NCBI RefSeq assembly: GCF_002807665.1
Contig: NZ_PEAY01000001.1
Location: 124,001 to 188,000 of the forward strand
Direction of reading: 5' to 3'
From: Neoalteromonas facilis
GTDB lineage: Bacteria; Pseudomonadota; Gammaproteobacteria; Enterobacterales; Alteromonadaceae
Length of the DNA: 64,000 nt
Shown here: positions 4,071 to 20,190 of the stretch, piece by piece
Numbering within the stretch: position 1 is the stretch's first letter
Layout of the letters: every line of letters starts with the position of its first letter
Made by a program: the position numbers and the translations under genes
Notes under the pieces: generated by a model
The model's database searches: none
What the model saw: the letters and a program-made list of their open reading frames with translations, nothing else
What the model was told of the DNA's origin: nothing

Positions 4071-5624
4071 ATGATGAATCAACCGAACCAAACCATAGCT
4101 GACGATAATTTGTGTGATATCGGATTTATCGGGCTAGGCGTAATGGGCAAAAACCTTACCTTAAACCTGGCGGATAACGGATATCGTATCGCTTGCTTTG
4201 ATCTTGACCAGTCAAAAGTTGATGGCATCATCGCGCAAGATACGCTGGAGCGTGGCGATAAGGCGCCTCGTGTCGTCGCGTGTCGTTCTTACACTGAGCT
4301 ACTCAGTAAATTAAAAGCGCCTCATTTAATCATTCTGTCGGTACCTGCGGGCGAGCCGGTTGATCACGTTTGTCACCATCTTATCGATTCAGGCATCGCG
4401 CCAGATGACATTGTGGTTGATACAGGCAACAGTTTATGGACTGATTCGGTCGAGCGTGAAAAACAGTACAAAGGCAAGTTCATATTCTTCTCAACCGCTG
4501 TATCTGGCGGAGAAGTAGGTGCTCGATTTGGACCATCCTTAATGCCGTCAGGCGACCCTTATGCCTGGACGCGCCTTGAACCCGTGTTTAAATCTATTGC
4601 TGCAAAGGTTGACCCTAAAACGGGTAAGCCTCTTGAGTCCAATATACCCGGTCAACCCGTAACAGAAGGTGAGCCGTGTGCGACTTATATTGGCCCGGTT
4701 GGTGCTGGTCATTACGTCAAAATGGTCCACAACGGGATTGAATATGCCGACATGCAATTGATTTGCGAGGCTTACCACATTATGCGTTTGGCTTTAGGTA
4801 TGACCCCAAGTCAAATCGCTGATGTGTTCCGTGAATGGAATGAGGGCGAATTGAACAGTTATCTTATTGAGATCAGTGCTGAAGTACTGGATCAAATGGA
4901 CGAAGAAACTGACACGCCATTGGTTGATGTTATTCTTGACCGAGCAGGCCAAAAGGGAACAGGCCTTTGGACCGCCGTGAGCGCGCTAGAAGTCGGAAGT
5001 CCGGCTCAAACTATTGCGCAAGCCGTGTTTGCCAGAAGCTTATCCAGCTTGAAAAAAGAACGCGTTGCTGCCAGTAAATGTTTGGCGGGACCTGCGTTAC
5101 CTGAATACAGTGAAGCGCAAAAAGCTGAGATTATTGCAGCATTAAAACATGCGCTCTATTGCAGCAAGATCTGTGCATATGCACAAGGTTTCCAGCTCAT
5201 GGACATCGCTGCCAAAGAGCACGGCTGGAAGTTGGATTTTGCCGAAATCGCCAAGATCTGGCGTGCCGGTTGTATAATTAGAGCAGTTTTCTTGCAGTCC
5301 ATCACGCAAGCATACGAGCAGGATGAAAAACTGGCAAACTTGCTGGTCGACCCATTCTTTACGCAACAAATCGTGACCTACCAGCAAGATTGGCGTAGTG
5401 CGATAAGTCATGCAGTATTGTCAGGCGTCCCGTGTCCTGCCATGACGTCTGCGTTGAGCTATTACGATTCCTATCGTATGGCTGTGCTGCCGGCGAACTT
5501 GTTGCAAGGACAGCGTGACTTCTTTGGCGCACATACGTTCCAACGCACAGATAAGCCGGAAGGCAAGCGCTACCATATAGAGTGGAATGATCCACAACGT
5601 CCACAAGTGATTATTAAAAAATAA
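4071..5624 (+). CDS. gnd: 6-phosphogluconate dehydrogenase, decarboxylating
   Basis: Oxidative pentose-phosphate enzyme that converts 6-phosphogluconate to ribulose 5-phosphate and CO2 with NADP+. The 517 residues contain the N-terminal Rossmann motif [12 protein letters not shown] (about 18-29), the substrate-binding [18 protein letters not shown], the catalytic segment [15 protein letters not shown] and the C-terminal helical domain ([32 protein letters not shown]). It is longer than the roughly 470-residue E. coli enzyme. Two adjacent ATGs (4071, 4074) follow the sequence GGGGAAAAC; either could start translation. A small hairpin covers this ribosome-binding region (4048-4065). The gene follows glgX by 44 bases, so glycogen breakdown and pentose-phosphate flux may be co-expressed; that link is inferred. 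Confidence 0.95.
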
Positions 5625-5646
5625 ATCGCAAGAAATGGGAGTTAGT

Positions 5647-6030
5647 ATGAGAAAGACCGATGATGAATGGAAAGCACAACTAACTCCCGAACAATTTCGC
5701 GTGTGTCGTGAACGCGGTACTGAGCGTCCTTTTACGGGCGAATTGCTAAATCAATTTGCACCGGGAACCTATCACTGTACATGTTGCGGAGCGGAATTGT
5801 TTGAAGCGCAAGCTAAGTTTGAATCGGGGGGCGGCTGGCCGTCATTTTATGCTCAAACAGATGCGGGGAATGTTGGCTATCAAGAAGATCACAGCCATGG
5901 CATGCACCGCATAGAGATCGTGTGTCAGCAATGTGATGCGCATTTAGGTCATGTGTTTGATGATGGTCCAGCGCCGACCGGAAAGCGCTATTGCGTGAAT
6001 TCTGTATCATTGCAATTCACTCCCAAGTAA
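5647..6030 (+). CDS. msrB: peptide-methionine (R)-S-oxide reductase MsrB
   Basis: Reduces methionine-R-sulfoxide in proteins, a repair function. I start it at ATG 5647 (127 residues) because GGGAG lies 5 bases upstream; an in-frame ATG at 5635 would destroy that site's role. SelR domain: the zinc-binding pairs are C44/C47 (CTCC) and C93/C96 (CQQC), the substrate-pocket motif is GGGWPSF at about 61-67, and the catalytic Cys116 lies in RYCVNS. It is a stand-alone MsrB with no MsrA fusion. It lies 22 bases after gnd and is probably the last gene of that unit. Confidence 0.95.
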
Positions 6031-6234
6031 CGTTCTAGGTTAATCAGATCTGCAACAATGTTGCGTAATGATCGATGTAAGTGCGGCGAAAACGCCAGCA
6101 TTGAGCTCTCTGTGGCTTTCAAACGTTGAAGATTTTGTTGCTTGGTGGCTCAAACAGCCTTTCCAAATGATAGATTTGGGCAAGCAACGGGCAAATAAAT
6201 GCACTAAATAACCAAAATATGTCAATTTTTTGAT

Positions 6235-6267
6235 ACGCCAAACTGAAATTTACTTTCAGTTAGGCGT
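6235..6267. terminator. long hairpin between convergent genes
   Basis: A 14-bp stem with one mismatch (ACGCCA AACTGAAA / TTTCAGTT AGGCGT) closes on a 5-base loop and overlaps the stop codon of the minus-strand lipoprotein gene. No T-run follows on either strand, so it is not a classical intrinsic terminator. It could end transcription from both sides or stabilise mRNA 3' ends. The 204 bases between msrB and this hairpin hold no other gene or motif that I recognise. Confidence 0.5.
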
Positions 6268-7072
6268 TAAATGTAAATTCCCTAGATTCAATATTGCTAT
6301 GGATGCTATCTGCACGCTGTTGCAGGTAATCGAAGTCTAATCCAGCGTCTGATGCCATACTTTGCAGGGTTGCAAAGTCAACTTCATTCTCTTCATACTC
6401 CGCTGCAATTAACGCCCATACAATTGCCATTTCCACTTCATCTCTCGATTTGTGTAATGTGTAAAGCGATATAAAAATATCGGGGTCGATTTCCTCGTCT
6501 TCTTGGTACAGGCTTAACGCCGTGTAAAGTGCGTTGATGGCTTTACCTGTGTCACGCTTTGCATGATAACTGGCTAACCCAACTTGCAAAGGAGCCGTAT
6601 TGAGTTGACCATTTTTCTCATAGCGCAAAAAGCGTGAAAGTGCGTCGTCATGGCCATGGCGAGACCATTGGTAAAAGCTTAAGTATGGATCATCGGTGTT
6701 GCGTGTTTCTCTAGCTAAGCGTTTAAGTTCATTTTGTGCGGTTAGCAAACCCTTCATACGACCACTTTCTTTCTCTCTCAATTCTTTATGCCTGATTTGA
6801 GCAGCCTTTGCGATGCATTGCTGGTAGTCTTCAAAGAACAAAATCATTTGATATTGCTCTTTGTTGCTGGGCGGGTTAGATAATGAATATCGGTGTTTAA
6901 TGATGTCGGCTTTTTCTGCACGGCACCACGCATCAGGATTTAGGTCATTGCAAATTGACGGATCTTCTTTGCACATTTGCGCGACGGTTTTCGCGGTAAA
7001 TTCCGTACAGCCAGACAACCACAATAAACATGAAAGTGTAACAAGTGACGGAAAATAACGTAAAAAATTCAA
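6260..7072 (-). CDS. putative DUF2989-type lipoprotein
   Basis: The 270 residues begin with a lipoprotein signal peptide ending LWLSGC (lipidated Cys22), so the protein is exported and probably membrane-anchored. After it come a Cys-containing segment (MCKEDPSICNDLNPDAWC), a charged helical part, and a repeat-like helical C-terminal region with the look of TPR/Sel1 helices (paired Ala-rich helices around residues 165-235). The pattern resembles the DUF2989 family known from Alteromonas, Shewanella and Vibrio, whose function is unknown. It is transcribed alone, convergent with msrB and divergent from the GAPDH-like gene. The family name is from memory and should be confirmed by a profile search. 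Confidence 0.75.
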   Translation of the reverse strand: MNFLRYFPSLVTLSCLLWLSGCTEFTAKTVAQMCKEDPSICNDLNPDAWCRAEKADIIKHRYSLSNPPSNKEQYQMILFFEDYQQCIAKAAQIRHKELREKESGRMKGLLTAQNELKRLARETRNTDDPYLSFYQWSRHGHDDALSRFLRYEKNGQLNTAPLQVGLASYHAKRDTGKAINALYTALSLYQEDEEIDPDIFISLYTLHKSRDEVEMAIVWALIAAEYEENEVDFATLQSMASDAGLDFDYLQQRADSIHSNIESREFTFNA

Positions 7073-7281
7073 ATTACCCTCGGCTATTTAACTAAAACTG
7101 AAATTTTTCAACAATTTGGCGTTCTTCAAATGCTTCATTACAATACCGCCCGATTTTAGTGAGGGCGTCACGGCGATTTATCACAACATCAGTGTAGCGT
7201 ATTTGGTGAACAAAAATGAATCGATACTGCGGATGTATGCGTGGCGTTAAGTATAGCGAATGATTACTATCTAGGTGGGGC

Positions 7282-8739
7282 ATGAATCAGCAATTCGAAC
7301 AAGAGTTACAATCCAGTTGGCAAGAGCGCCAAGAATATGCAGAAATGATGTTGCCGTTGATTGGCAAGTTGTACCGCAATCACGCAGTTGAAATTTCAAT
7401 TTACGGTCGCCCTCTGTTAAACGCTAGCGCAATCGATGTGATTAAAGCACACCGTACTGTTCGTTTGCACGAAGGTGTCAAATTACGTTTGCGTGAAAGC
7501 TGGCCGATTTTGGAAGCTTTGAGCAACATGACGCTTGCCCCAGCGCAAATTGATATCGGTAAGTTGGCGTTCGATTTCCATTACGGTAGCGCTGTAGATA
7601 ATAATGACCTAGACGGTTACCTACGAGCTGCGCTTGCTGACGTGATTGACCGCACCGATGACCAAGAGCCACAAGATGTTGTGTTGTATGGTTTCGGTCG
7701 TATTGGTCGTTTGCTTGCACGCTTAATGATTGAGCGTCAGGGTACAAGCAACAAACTGCGCTTACGTGCAATTGTTGTGCGTGGTGGTCGTGAAGGCGAT
7801 TTAGAAAAGCGAGCGAGTTTATTGCGTCGCGATTCAGTTCATGGGCCTTTCAACGGTAGTATCACTATCGATAATGAACGCAAAGCTATCAAAGCGAACG
7901 GTTCATATATTCAGGTTATTTACGCCAACAGCCCAGACGAAGTCGATTACACTCAATACGGTATTAATAATGCGATCATCATTGATAATACTGGTATTTG
8001 GCGTGACCGCGATGGCTTAGGCTTACACCTAAAAGCTAAAGGTGCATCTAAAGCAATCCTAACGGCACCAGGTAAAGGTGACATCAAAAATATCGTACAC
8101 GGCGTAAACCATGGCGATATTGACACAAGTGATACTATTTTGAGTGCCGCAAGCTGTACAACAAATGCGATTACGCCAGTATTGAAAGCGATTGATGAAG
8201 AGTACGGTATTACCAGCGGACACGTTGAAACGGTTCACTCGTATACAAACGACCAAAACTTGATTGATAACTATCACAAAGCCGAACGTCGTGGTCGCAG
8301 TGCTCCATTAAATATGGTAATCACTGAAACGGGTGCTGCTAAAGCGGTAGCTAAAGCCTATCCAAAACTAGCCGGTAAGCTAACGGGTAATGCGATTCGA
8401 GTGCCGACACCTAATGTATCTATGGCGATCCTTAATCTAAACCTTGAAAAGGCGACAGATAAAGTTTCTATCAACGAATACTTGCGTGATGCGGCGTTGT
8501 TCTCAGATCTGCAACATCAAATTGATTACACTGCATCGACAGAAATCGTATCAACCGACTTAGTGGGCGCACGTGCGGCAGCTGTGGTTGATAGTCAGGC
8601 AACAATTGTCGCTGACAACCGCGTGACATTGTACGTTTGGTACGATAACGAGTTTGGTTATAGCTGTCAGGTTATGCGCGTTGTGCGTGACATGGCAGGG
8701 CTAGACTTCCCATCGGTGCCAGCTAATACACGAAACTAA
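7282..8739 (+). CDS. glyceraldehyde-3-phosphate dehydrogenase-like protein with N-terminal extension
   Basis: The 485 residues divide into about 130 N-terminal residues without an obvious known fold, then a complete GAPDH domain. The Rossmann motif YGFGRIGRLLAR starts near residue 136, the catalytic Cys292 lies in SAASCTTNAITP, and the C-terminal part ends with WYDNEFGYSCQV, all typical of GAPDH. Classical GAPDH is about 335 residues, so the extension accounts for the extra length. This long form is known in Vibrio, Shewanella and Alteromonas beside an ordinary gapA; its cofactor and direction are not certain from sequence. The ATG follows AGGTGGGG. Transcribed alone, with its own terminator just downstream. 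The 209 bases upstream are a divergent promoter region in which I see no confident -35/-10 pair. Confidence 0.88.
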   Translation: MNQQFEQELQSSWQERQEYAEMMLPLIGKLYRNHAVEISIYGRPLLNASAIDVIKAHRTVRLHEGVKLRLRESWPILEALSNMTLAPAQIDIGKLAFDFHYGSAVDNNDLDGYLRAALADVIDRTDDQEPQDVVLYGFGRIGRLLARLMIERQGTSNKLRLRAIVVRGGREGDLEKRASLLRRDSVHGPFNGSITIDNERKAIKANGSYIQVIYANSPDEVDYTQYGINNAIIIDNTGIWRDRDGLGLHLKAKGASKAILTAPGKGDIKNIVHGVNHGDIDTSDTILSAASCTTNAITPVLKAIDEEYGITSGHVETVHSYTNDQNLIDNYHKAERRGRSAPLNMVITETGAAKAVAKAYPKLAGKLTGNAIRVPTPNVSMAILNLNLEKATDKVSINEYLRDAALFSDLQHQIDYTASTEIVSTDLVGARAAAVVDSQATIVADNRVTLYVWYDNEFGYSCQVMRVVRDMAGLDFPSVPANTRN

Positions 8740-17280: not shown

Positions 17281-18075
17281 ATGAGTAACAATCAGTTGAA
17301 AAAAGGCTCGATAACCTGTGTCGGTACAGGCATGACCATCGGTGCTCACATGAGTATTCGTTGCAAAAACCACATTTCCCAAGCGGATGTGGTGTTCAGT
17401 AGTTGCCACCCAGTAATGCAGCAGCACATTGAGCGGCTTAATCCGAATACTCACTCTCTACAATATTTGTACTCGAGCGATAAACCGCGCAATCAAACGT
17501 ATATTGATATGGTAGAGGTCATGATGGACGAGGTACGCCAAGGAAAGCGTGTCGTGGGCGCTTTTTATGGGCACCCAGGCGTATTTGCGCGCGCACCACA
17601 CAATGTTATTCGTCAGGCTAGAGAAGAAGGTTACAGTGCTGTTATGGAGCCGGGAATTTCTGCCGAGGACTGTTTGTATGCTGATGTGGGTATCGACCCA
17701 GGGGATGTCGGCTGCCAGCATTATGAAGCAAGCCAGTTTATGTTTTATCAACACCGCTATGATGCGTCGGCTTACTTAGTGTTGTGGCAGATAGCATTAG
17801 CCGGTGAGTTATCTCTAACTACGAAAGTCAGTTCATCCCAACATGTAACTATCTTATGTGAATTGCTATATGAACACTATGCGCCATCACATCAGGTGAT
17901 CTTATATGAATGCCCTACATTACCCACTGACGACGCTAGGATTGACTATATTTCGCTGGCTGATTTACCTACCGCAGATATGTCGCCCATTACAACGCTT
18001 ATTGTACCGCCTGCTTATAAACCAATACAGAATGCGAAGGTTTTGCAAAAACTGAGGCTGTTAACAAGTAATTAA
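17281..18075 (+). CDS. borosin-type peptide alpha-N-methyltransferase (tetrapyrrole-methylase fold)
   Basis: The 264-residue SAM-dependent methyltransferase has the features of borosin enzymes that methylate peptide backbone amides. In order: GSITCVGTGMTIGAH (9-23, SAM site), YLYSSDKPRNQTYIDM (62-77), where Arg70 and Tyr74 keep the Arg-x3-Tyr spacing of the catalytic pair in OphMA, FYGHPGVFARAPH (95-107), EPGISAEDCLYADVGIDP (123-140) and YEASQFMF (148-155). YGHPGVF and the PGxSAED/EA blocks are shared, as I recall them, with OphMA and with the free-standing SonM of Shewanella. Unlike OphMA it ends after the methylase domain (TTLIVPP), with no clasp and no fused core, so the substrate must be a separate protein; the next gene fits. 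Generic tools would call it a tetrapyrrole methylase or uroporphyrinogen methyltransferase, but no cobalamin or siroheme gene is near. The ATG has a poor ribosome-binding site. Confidence 0.85.
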   Translation: MSNNQLKKGSITCVGTGMTIGAHMSIRCKNHISQADVVFSSCHPVMQQHIERLNPNTHSLQYLYSSDKPRNQTYIDMVEVMMDEVRQGKRVVGAFYGHPGVFARAPHNVIRQAREEGYSAVMEPGISAEDCLYADVGIDPGDVGCQHYEASQFMFYQHRYDASAYLVLWQIALAGELSLTTKVSSSQHVTILCELLYEHYAPSHQVILYECPTLPTDDARIDYISLADLPTADMSPITTLIVPPAYKPIQNAKVLQKLRLLTSN

Positions 18076-18158
18076 TACTTTTATCACACGCGGTTTCAGG
18101 CATAATTTGTGCTCAATAAAAAGCTATCACTTAAACGCACGTAAACGAGAACATAGTA

Positions 18159-18407
18159 ATGACAATGTTAGAAAAACAATACGCTACGGAAGCTTTAGAA
18201 ATACTGATTGAATTAGGGGAAAATCCTGCATCTCAGGACATCATATTAACACCAGAACAGCAAGCGATCCTTGACGCTTATAAAGCGGATGCACAAAGTG
18301 CCGAGCTGTTAATGATTATCACGACGCCACCAGAGCCGGGCAAAGAAGAAGATGATGAAGATGACAAGGAAGATGACTCTGAAAAACCAGCGGATAGGGT
18401 TGCTTAA
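18159..18407 (+). CDS. putative split-borosin precursor peptide
   Basis: This 82-residue protein lies 83 bases after the methyltransferase. Residues 4-45 look like a small helical recognition domain: EALEILIELGENP, then ILTPEQQAILDAYKAD. The LTxEQ element echoes the recognition domain of SonA (LTDEQ, from memory). A hydrophobic stretch LLMIITTPPEP (50-60) follows and is the best candidate for the backbone-methylated core, then a very acidic tail (EEDDEDDKEDD, 63-73). There is no Cys, signal peptide or membrane helix. The assignment as precursor rests on position, size and architecture, not on a sequence match, and the core limits are a guess. ATG 18159 or 18165 could be the start; the ribosome-binding site (CGAGA, 9 bases upstream) is modest. 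An ordinary small acidic protein is the main alternative. Confidence 0.65.
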   Translation: MTMLEKQYATEALEILIELGENPASQDIILTPEQQAILDAYKADAQSAELLMIITTPPEPGKEEDDEDDKEDDSEKPADRVA

Positions 18408-18437: not shown

Positions 18438-20168
18438 GTGCTCAATTATAAATTTATAGCTACATTGTTGCTCGGCTTCAGTGTGCTATTTAACGTTGCT
18501 CGTGCCTCAGATTTCGAACGTTTAGTTGAGGCTGAGGCACTGCGCTTGTCTGATCAAAAACGAGCAGGTGAATTAATGTCTGAGATTAATCCAGACAATT
18601 TACCGTTGCTACAAAAGCAAACTTATCAATACTTAAAAGCCTATTTTCGCCTATACAGCGGCGAGTTCGAAGAGGCGCTTGCCGACAATCTGGGTTTATT
18701 GCAACAGGTGTCGAATCCTGCATTACGCCTTAAAATTAAATCTTCCATTTTAAACGCCTATATTGCGTTAAACCGTTGGCAAGATGGAATTTTGCTGTCA
18801 AATGATATGCTGGAAGAGTTTGCAGACATCACGGATCCCAACTTACTCGCCTATTTTACTTCGATAAGTACATTTTATTATTACCTTGGGGATTATGAGA
18901 CGGCGCTACTTCACGTTGAAAGGCTATTGCCAGTCGGTGTTCCAGCAGACTCTCTTTGCATATTGCTACACCTGAAGATTGATTCAAATTACAAGTTATA
19001 TGCGTCAGAGGGGGTTTCAGCGACTGAGTATGCCAATACCAACGATGTTTGCGAAAAAGCTAATAATCGCGTCATGCAGGCCATTGTTAATCGTGTTTGG
19101 GCACAAGTACTGCTCGATCGTGAAAAGCCTAAGGAGGCATTGAAGGTTCTCGATGATACTCAACAATTGCGTGAAGAAGCGAATTACGTTTTGGAAGACT
19201 TGTATACAAAAACGGTATACGCAGAAGCCTACCTTCAATTGTCTGACTTCAGCATGGCTGAACAGTATGCTCGCGACATGTTGGCTCATGAAGCGAGTCA
19301 TAGTTACAGTATAGGTCGCATACGAGCATTGAACGTACTGTGGCAAGCGTTAAAACAGCAACAGGCGTTCGATGAGGCTTTATCGGTTTTCGAGCAATAT
19401 GTTGAGTTAAAACAGAAGAAAACCGAAACCGACACAGTGAAGCTACGAATCATTCAGCAAGTAAATGCTGATATTGCTGCCAAAGAAGCCGATATTGAAC
19501 GACTGGACCAACAAAATAGGTTGTTACGTACTGAGAAAGATTTAGCCACGGAGAGAATCGAAAACAGTATTCTGGCATTTATTCTTTTGAGTACACTGCT
19601 AACAATATTAATGTTTTGGTCCTATCGCGGTCGAAAATTGCAGAAGCGTTTTGAATATCTGGCAAAAACTGATGGCCTCACGGGGATCAATAATCGTTCT
19701 GAATTTATTGAACAGGGTACGCAAATGCTGCAAAAAGCGCATAAACGTTTCGCGCCTGTATCATTAATATTACTCGATTTAGATAAATTCAAACATGTTA
19801 ACGACACCTATGGTCATAAAGCCGGAGATGACGCGTTACAGCTCACAGTGAAGAGCATAGAGGCGCTGTTGGATACATCCATGTTATTTGCGCGTATGGG
19901 CGGTGAAGAGTTCGCGATTTTGAAAGTGGGCTATGCGCAAGATCAAGCCGCTAAATTTGCGGAGCATTGTCGTGAAGCGCTAGAGCGAATAGATACCAAA
20001 GACACGGGGCATAATTTTAAAATAACGGCCAGCTTTGGCGTAACTGATAGCACTTTGGCGGGATATAAGCTGGATACATTGCTTGCGTCTGCAGACTTGG
20101 CGTTATATCAGTCGAAACACTTCGGACGTAATCAAGTTTTTAAATACAACGCCAGATTAGCGCAGTAG
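18438..20168 (+). CDS. TPR-sensor diguanylate cyclase (GGDEF protein)
   Basis: The 576 residues start at GTG 18438, 30 bases after the small acidic gene, with no terminator between. An N-terminal signal peptide (1-23) leads to a periplasmic helical region with TPR-like repeats (about 30-330), a coiled coil (about 335-375, TDTVKLRIIQQVNADIAAK and on), one membrane segment (about 376-396) and a cytoplasmic GGDEF domain. The active-site loop is GGEEF (488-492), with LLDLDKFKHVND and YGHKAGD upstream, so c-di-GMP synthesis is likely. No RxxD inhibitory site precedes GGEEF. The periplasmic TPR part probably senses a protein or peptide; a link to the neighbouring borosin pair is only inferred from gene order. 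Confidence 0.9.
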   Translation: MLNYKFIATLLLGFSVLFNVARASDFERLVEAEALRLSDQKRAGELMSEINPDNLPLLQKQTYQYLKAYFRLYSGEFEEALADNLGLLQQVSNPALRLKIKSSILNAYIALNRWQDGILLSNDMLEEFADITDPNLLAYFTSISTFYYYLGDYETALLHVERLLPVGVPADSLCILLHLKIDSNYKLYASEGVSATEYANTNDVCEKANNRVMQAIVNRVWAQVLLDREKPKEALKVLDDTQQLREEANYVLEDLYTKTVYAEAYLQLSDFSMAEQYARDMLAHEASHSYSIGRIRALNVLWQALKQQQAFDEALSVFEQYVELKQKKTETDTVKLRIIQQVNADIAAKEADIERLDQQNRLLRTEKDLATERIENSILAFILLSTLLTILMFWSYRGRKLQKRFEYLAKTDGLTGINNRSEFIEQGTQMLQKAHKRFAPVSLILLDLDKFKHVNDTYGHKAGDDALQLTVKSIEALLDTSMLFARMGGEEFAILKVGYAQDQAAKFAEHCREALERIDTKDTGHNFKITASFGVTDSTLAGYKLDTLLASADLALYQSKHFGRNQVFKYNARLAQ

Positions 20169-20190
20169 CTGACCACTGCGCCTTTTATTT
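20160..20190 (+). terminator. rho-independent terminator after the GGDEF gene
   Basis: The stem GCGCAGT / ACTGCGC (8-base loop) overlaps the GGDEF stop codon and is followed by CTTTTATTT. It closes the methyltransferase-small peptide-GGDEF unit before the convergent lipA. Confidence 0.7.

Follow-up and report, generated by a model that had tools for sequence, protein, structure and literature searches.

A predicted split borosin pair and its conserved TPR-sensor diguanylate cyclase partner in Neoalteromonas facilis

What is made, and for what use, when a putative peptide N-methyltransferase is encoded directly ahead of a small protein, and does the gene that follows belong with the two? The question is raised by a locus of Neoalteromonas facilis in a stretch of 64,000 nucleotides (contig NZ_PEAY01000001.1, positions 124,001 to 188,000), referred to here as the window. 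An earlier note, made from the letters of this DNA, had taken the first two genes to be a split borosin pathway, with a separate enzyme and a separate peptide substrate. That reading of the pair stood, and it was incomplete, because a diguanylate cyclase with a TPR sensor encoded at 18438-20168 had been overlooked. Taken together, the comparisons reported below led us to read the locus as a split borosin pair with a dedicated TPR-cyclase partner, at a probability of roughly 0.85. The set comprises three genes, all on the forward strand, and the features of the locus are as follows (positions in the window).

17281 to 18075, forward strand: SonM-type borosin alpha-N-methyltransferase (predicted), 264 aa, matching SonM at E=1e-70 with four SonM residues matched
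18159 to 18407, forward strand: putative borosin precursor, 82 aa, with leader at about 1-48, core at about 50-60 and acidic follower at 61-82
18306 to 18338, forward strand: predicted core LLMIITTPPEP, from the alignment to SonA
18339 to 18404, forward strand: acidic C-terminal tail of the precursor, shared by related precursors
18438 to 20168, forward strand: TPR-sensor diguanylate cyclase, 576 aa, GTG start, GGDEF match at E=8.7e-37
18510 to 19562, forward strand: TPR sensor region with Cys174 and Cys205, from alignment and fold model
19662 to 20135, forward strand: GGDEF domain (residues 409-566) with a GGEEF motif and no RxxD at the inhibitory-site position
20160 to 20181, forward strand: terminator-like hairpin, by consensus match only, at the third gene's 3' end

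The stop codon of the enzyme gene is separated from the precursor start by 83 bp and the precursor from the third gene by thirty bases, and the three genes are likely to form one operon. Terminator-like hairpins in the region, called by consensus match only, numbered 4 against 3.4 expected from shuffles, and promoter matches numbered 3 against 7.5 expected. Upstream of the set lies a divergent type I asparaginase gene, and downstream lie opposite-strand genes which we take to be lipA and lipB. Alteromonas-type relatives carry the set at the same genomic site as in the window, and the neighbour clusters common to other loci included asparaginase (11/81, a count without the copy in the window, the one that overlaps the enzyme ORF), lipA (14/81) and lipB (14/81). 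In a 12-kb stretch from a relative (L302), a TPR cyclase gene (5640-7370) lies between the asparaginase gene (ansA) and lipA with the pair absent, and thus the cyclase can exist alone.

In the 264-residue product of the first gene, the sequence motifs from which the borosin reading had started were all present, with FYGHPGVF at residues 95-102, EPGISAEDCLYADVGIDP at residues 123-140 and the Arg70/Tyr74 pair. Among solved structures the nearest to the enzyme was SonM, followed by dbOphM, OphMA and MroMA (4e-47 to 1.6e-39), and no clustering with CobA/CysG-type methylases was seen, tetrapyrrole methylases of known structure matching at E>0.03 only. As the earlier note had foreseen, automatic annotation is less specific: Pfam assigned the enzyme to TP_methylase (E=6.6e-18) and gave no match for the small protein. 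This assignment, with NCBIfam likewise putting the enzyme in the tetrapyrrole methylase superfamily, is what speaks for the enzyme being a tetrapyrrole methylase beside an unrelated small ORF; however, the NCBIfam scores were far under cut-off (43.8 against 525 bits, and 20.9 against 185 for TIGR01469) and, together with the structure matches, they led us to reject this identity as wildly improbable. Window residues Y64, R70, Y74 and Y96 align to Y58, R67, Y71 and Y93 of SonM and are invariant across 21 aligned enzyme sequences; the four SonM residues were examined by mutation, according to the main text of the SonM/SonA paper (PMC8429565). The methyltransferase is common in the set drawn at the level of the order Enterobacterales and is no rarity, homologues (E<=1e-20) being found in 95 of 394 genomes of the order and in 9 of 369 genomes of a class-wide draw. 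Relatives of the enzyme also occurred in 12 of 72,556 plasmid records, all below 60% identity, and among IMG/VR contigs one distant relative was confirmed, 32% identical to it and lying at 6001-6765 of a contig classed as viral (L120).

The 82-residue protein carries LLMIITTPPEP at residues 50-60, and its helical N-terminal half, remarked on in the earlier note, was borne out as a prediction, the structural model (of moderate confidence, pLDDT 73) having helices at 3-21 and 32-46 and none regular past 46; the boundaries of leader, core and follower are a reading of the alignment. When searched alone against the PDB the peptide had no match, and its two-helix model gave in Foldseek one unrelated match (E=5.2) and no SonA five-helix bundle. 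Relatives were found by sequence. Across the 295 whole genomes searched from the family, four matches other than itself were found for the window peptide at E<=0.01 (7e-6 to 1e-3), and all four adjoin a methyltransferase homologue (genomes G224, G106, G418 and G590), while a phmmer search of 7160 small ORFs near methyltransferases gave 16 other matches (E<=1, best 5.5e-7), every one a member of the precursor family. A precursor profile, assembled from ORFs that closely follow methyltransferases and applied at a limit of 1e-3, placed a family member within 2.5 kb of 77 of the 80 named methyltransferases, which are the best 80 of 578 loci and are biased towards the window, and of 121 of 153 other methyltransferases; with this profile 35 enzymes had no precursor within 2.5 kb, 32 of them among the 153. 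Shuffled ORFs gave no match at 1e-3 or below. When the window peptide was omitted from the profile it was recovered at E=0.0016, just beyond the limit, ranking 229 of 241 matches under E=10. An acidic-tailed profile lacking SonA-like rows placed seven SonA sequences at the top (E 0.005 to 0.02), and the addition of SonA-like rows brought SonA to E=3e-14. The comparisons thus support identification of the 82-aa protein as a divergent borosin precursor. The match of the enzyme and the membership of the small protein in a precursor family encoded beside methyltransferases support the original proposal, and on this evidence from sequence the pair is a type IV split borosin.

The closest characterised system is the type IV pair SonM/SonA of Shewanella oneidensis (PMC8429565; PDB 7ltc and 7lte), which likewise has a separate enzyme of about 264 aa. 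The window enzyme has counterparts of all four SonM residues named above, and the window precursor resembles SonA in being adjacent and small and in having a leader with LG and LT-x-E/D motifs and a hydrophobic core. The two precursors also differ: from the LG motif to the core the leader of the window falls about 19 residues short of that of SonA, a deficit made up in part by an N-terminal extension of 8 residues, and the window core continues into PPEP and a long acidic tail, both of which SonA lacks. In relatives, SonA-like precursors too can be followed directly by a TPR cyclase gene (e.g., L179 and L185). The methyltransferase domain of fungal OphMA is homologous to the window enzyme (E about 2e-45); OphMA, however, carries its core and clasp as a fusion with the enzyme, as stated in the same main text (PMC8429565), whereas in the window the two proteins are separate ORFs of 264 and 82 aa. 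In the precursor alignment, Met52 and Ile54 of the window align with Leu63 and Ile65 of SonA, which that text gives as the two residues methylated in crystals (PMC8429565). Over 13 related precursors including that of the window, entropy was low at positions 52 (0.96 bits) and 54 (1.14 bits), both conserved as hydrophobic, and higher at positions 51, 53 and 55 (2.87, 2.10 and 2.57 bits), and Pro57 was invariant. The conserved pattern at 52 and 54 would fit alternate residues entering the hydrophobic pocket of the enzyme, and backbone N-methylation is predicted to fall most likely on Met52 and Ile54.

Two hydrophobic segments are encoded by the third gene, the first at the N-terminus (from residue 6) and the second from residue 377; the TPR region lies between them, and the GGEEF-containing domain follows the second. 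In the whole protein TPR_12 matched at 6.4e-6, below cut-off, and it rose above cut-off when the sensor was searched alone. By a hydropathy rule the first segment was found in 114 and the second in 150 of 152 borosin-linked cyclases, a redundant set made up of 74 named, 72 order-wide and 5 other cyclases and that of the window. Cys174 and Cys205 are present without exception in the 64 sensors aligned, whose mean identity is 27%, and the pair would fit a periplasmic disulphide in the sensor. Given the two hydrophobic segments and the invariant cysteines, the TPR sensor domain is predicted to be periplasmic.

The model of the sensor was confident (pLDDT 93). Its best structural matches by E-value were TPR domains of LGN/Pins and of Bacillus or phage Rap receptors, several of them peptide-bound; the top TM score among the best 50 matches belonged to a Rap protein (0.61), with LGN chains ranking equally high, and sequence profiles gave LGN at 3e-14 followed weakly by Rap (E 3e-4) and AimR (1e-3). 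Since TPR folds are generically alike, the likeness to Rap is a weak match, compatible with a peptide ligand and no more. Rap proteins act in the cytoplasm as phosphatases or regulators, and RRNPP receptors as a group are cytoplasmic, with DNA-binding or Rap-type phosphatase output. The TPR fold of the sensor model resembles that of the Rap/RRNPP proteins solved with peptides in PDB 4gyo and 8rst (TM 0.60-0.61). In contrast to these, sensors of the window type are predicted to be periplasmic and have GGDEF, histidine kinase or no output. The TPR sensor is not a member of RRNPP, and by analogy it may have a similar mode of action.

How closely this sensor is tied to the methyltransferase was determined across relatives. 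With a sensor profile, 133 of 141 order-wide methyltransferases were found to have a sensor relative no further than 6 kb away, and in 108 of the 141 the sensor gene is on the same strand and starts no more than 1.3 kb downstream of the enzyme; among class-level enzymes the figure was 2 of 7, and the link therefore fades outside the order. Because the window and 63 of the 74 usable named-locus cyclases went into this profile (A4), the presence of a sensor near 78 of the 80 named loci is partly by construction; the 141 order-wide enzymes are a fairer sample, yet share some loci with the named ones (e.g., L050, and L265 from an added genus set). The window genome has 55 places in its 3.9 Mb that match the cyclase protein, mostly through the GGDEF part. 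A same-strand match to the cyclase lies within 4.5 kb downstream of 79 of 153 enzymes against about 3% expected by chance, the remainder comprising 19 with a near match in another arrangement, 52 with none and 3 that are cut. Of the 152 borosin-linked cyclases, a set with redundancy in which the one of the window is counted, 139 were matched by the sensor region of the window, against none of the 28 cyclases of its own genome that are whole genes among the other 54 places.

Sensor and enzyme also go together by genome and by sequence. Across genomes of the order, 91 had both enzyme and sensor, 4 the enzyme only, 13 the sensor only and 286 neither (Fisher p=2e-69, uncorrected for ancestry). Over 135 loci, sensor identity and enzyme identity were correlated (Spearman 0.63, likewise uncorrected for ancestry), a value reached in 0 of 500 permutations, of which the highest gave 0.14. 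Within genomes having at least two loci, and with near-identical sensor pairs excluded, the correlation was positive in 39 of 40 comparisons, which are not independent where genomes are related; one of the positive values was 0.08 and the exception was -0.18. Where a genome's loci differ in their likeness to an enzyme of another genome, the closer locus thus tends to hold the sensor closer to that genome's sensor too. The nearest sensor in another genome was accompanied by the same precursor class (acidic or non-acidic) in 107 of 114 cases. These results show joint inheritance of enzyme, precursor and sensor as one unit; binding is not thereby implied. At 14 sensor loci chosen for lying away from methyltransferases, neither enzyme nor precursor was found in any. 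Conservation and co-variation across relatives show that the TPR cyclase is a dedicated partner of the pair and not a chance neighbour.

The part of the partner protein that follows the sensor was found to vary. Beside the 141 order-wide enzymes, 87 neighbours combined TPR with GG(D/E)EF and 20 combined it with kinase motifs, 19 consisted of TPR alone (<450 aa) and 7 had another or degenerate GGDEF, the seven degenerate proteins being judged by eye from sequence; 8 enzymes had no such neighbour. A total of 109 proteins kept the cysteine pair, namely all 85 aligned GGDEF-type sensors (two opposite-strand cyclases were left out of this alignment), all 7 degenerate ones, 15 of the 19 short sensors and 2 of the 20 of kinase type. 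Motifs defined the kinase type in all 20, and Pfam bore it out for eight of them, as well as for L259 and L266 outside the order set; Pfam showed histidine kinase or hybrid kinase output in 8 of 10 GGDEF-less proteins tested and in L142. Only L133 and L142 among the kinase-type neighbours have the cysteine pair; the other 18 of the 20 lack it and look like a more distant TPR group. Both L133 and L142 join a histidine kinase to a sensor of the same type, which is as near to the profile as the sensors of cyclases (E=7e-91 for L133 and 2e-86 for L142), and in L133, which is cut by the contig end, Pfam showed HisKA alone. Within the TPR-alone class of 19, L217 is truncated where its contig stops, and L207, after which a GGDEF match comes, probably represents a broken cyclase. 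Stand-alone sensors of about 350-370 aa are frequent in genus g25, with up to four consecutive; at L208, four successive stand-alone TPR proteins of 354-361 aa without a GGDEF motif follow the methyltransferase. The sensor is thus more constant than its output, which may be a cyclase, a histidine kinase or none.

Gene numbers differ among the relatives as well. Three loci (L152, L153 and L154) have two methyltransferase genes in a row with a precursor apiece (one precursor acidic, the other not) and only one TPR cyclase after them, and two others (L126, at 4919-5665, and L189) have one methyltransferase with two precursors, those of L126 being nearly identical. L126 also has a GGDEF match downstream without a sensor match. 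In L042, L043, L044, L046, L047 and L048, tandem GGDEF genes come after the precursor, the second of them being split in L048.

Genes that might serve in maturation were recorded at other loci. GNAT acetyltransferases form neighbour clusters near 48 of 81 loci (family checked on one member) and pepsin-like aspartyl proteases occur in 21 of 81 (e.g., L053, 4604-5902, upstream of the methyltransferase; PF00026 in the one member tested), neither being at the window locus. Such a protease is a possible leader peptidase, and Lee (2024) is reported to have found that shewasin A, which is homologous to pepsin, has a borosin precursor as its native substrate. The window genome itself gave no pepsin match, either by PF00026, which matched 0 of 14 control genomes as well, or with the protease of a relative, a search made without a positive control.

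In the mechanism that we propose, the SonM-type enzyme would bind the helical leader of the separate 82-aa precursor, as homology supports, and would methylate backbone nitrogens of the core LLMIITTPPEP. A trimmed N-methylated peptide would then reach the periplasm, be bound by the TPR sensor and change its cyclic di-GMP output, a course of events that we hold tentatively, at a shade under even odds. The main competitor, itself improbable on balance yet a serious contender, is that the split borosin yields a secreted bioactive or metal-related natural product and that the cyclase is merely a regulator answering another cue. RiPP clusters often carry their own regulators, cyclases of the same sensor family occur without the pair, and the pepsin-like proteases and GNAT acetyltransferases at many loci fit a maturation pathway, all of which would suit this explanation; however, it leaves aside that the sensor tracks the enzyme within genomes and stays beside it while the joined output changes.

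A further possibility is that no peptide is released, with the TPR protein or some other partner as the substrate of the enzyme, or with the intact methylated precursor controlling the cyclase from the cytoplasm. The three-gene set has no protease gene, and searches of the genome, whose controls were silent, yielded no pepsin homologue, which speaks for such an arrangement. The hydrophobic segments (from residues 6 and 377) and the cysteine pair suggest, however, that the TPR domain is periplasmic and so beyond a cytoplasmic enzyme, and the precursor family is conserved beside the enzyme; we consider control without release unlikely. Signalling by a released, N-methylated peptide remains the function that we favour for the pair and its partner. 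Extended beyond this locus, the same reading would make gammaproteobacterial split borosins a form of ribosomal peptide signalling, with an N-methylated ligand, a cysteine-paired periplasmic TPR receptor and outputs swapped in the course of evolution (cyclic di-GMP synthesis, histidine kinase or stand-alone), and this wider proposal is a conjecture that we rate a little below the one for the single locus.

With regard to published work, a GGDEF-sequence-containing domain is listed in the Figure 1 legend on borosin types of PMC11395268, which means that, by that legend, some borosin type with a GGDEF component has already been published; among the papers searched this was the only one to contain both 'borosin' and 'GGDEF'. 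The main text of the SonM/SonA paper (PMC8429565) does not contain 'GGDEF', 'diguanylate' or 'signal'. In the literature searched, which did not take in key borosin papers, 'borosin' was not found together with 'diguanylate' or 'tetratricopeptide', and 'borosin' co-occurred with 'histidine kinase' once, in unrelated passages.

The TPR partner is more interesting than the pair itself. A conserved receptor-like protein with exchangeable outputs gives the locus a testable function, namely a peptide signal perceived through the TPR domain, and the function of bacterial borosins becomes a question of binding. From a limited literature search, we know of no backbone-methylated peptide signal in bacteria and of no diguanylate cyclase with a peptide ligand. 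If the proposal is true, it would add a backbone-methylated class to the bacterial peptide signals and would provide diguanylate cyclases with a peptide ligand.
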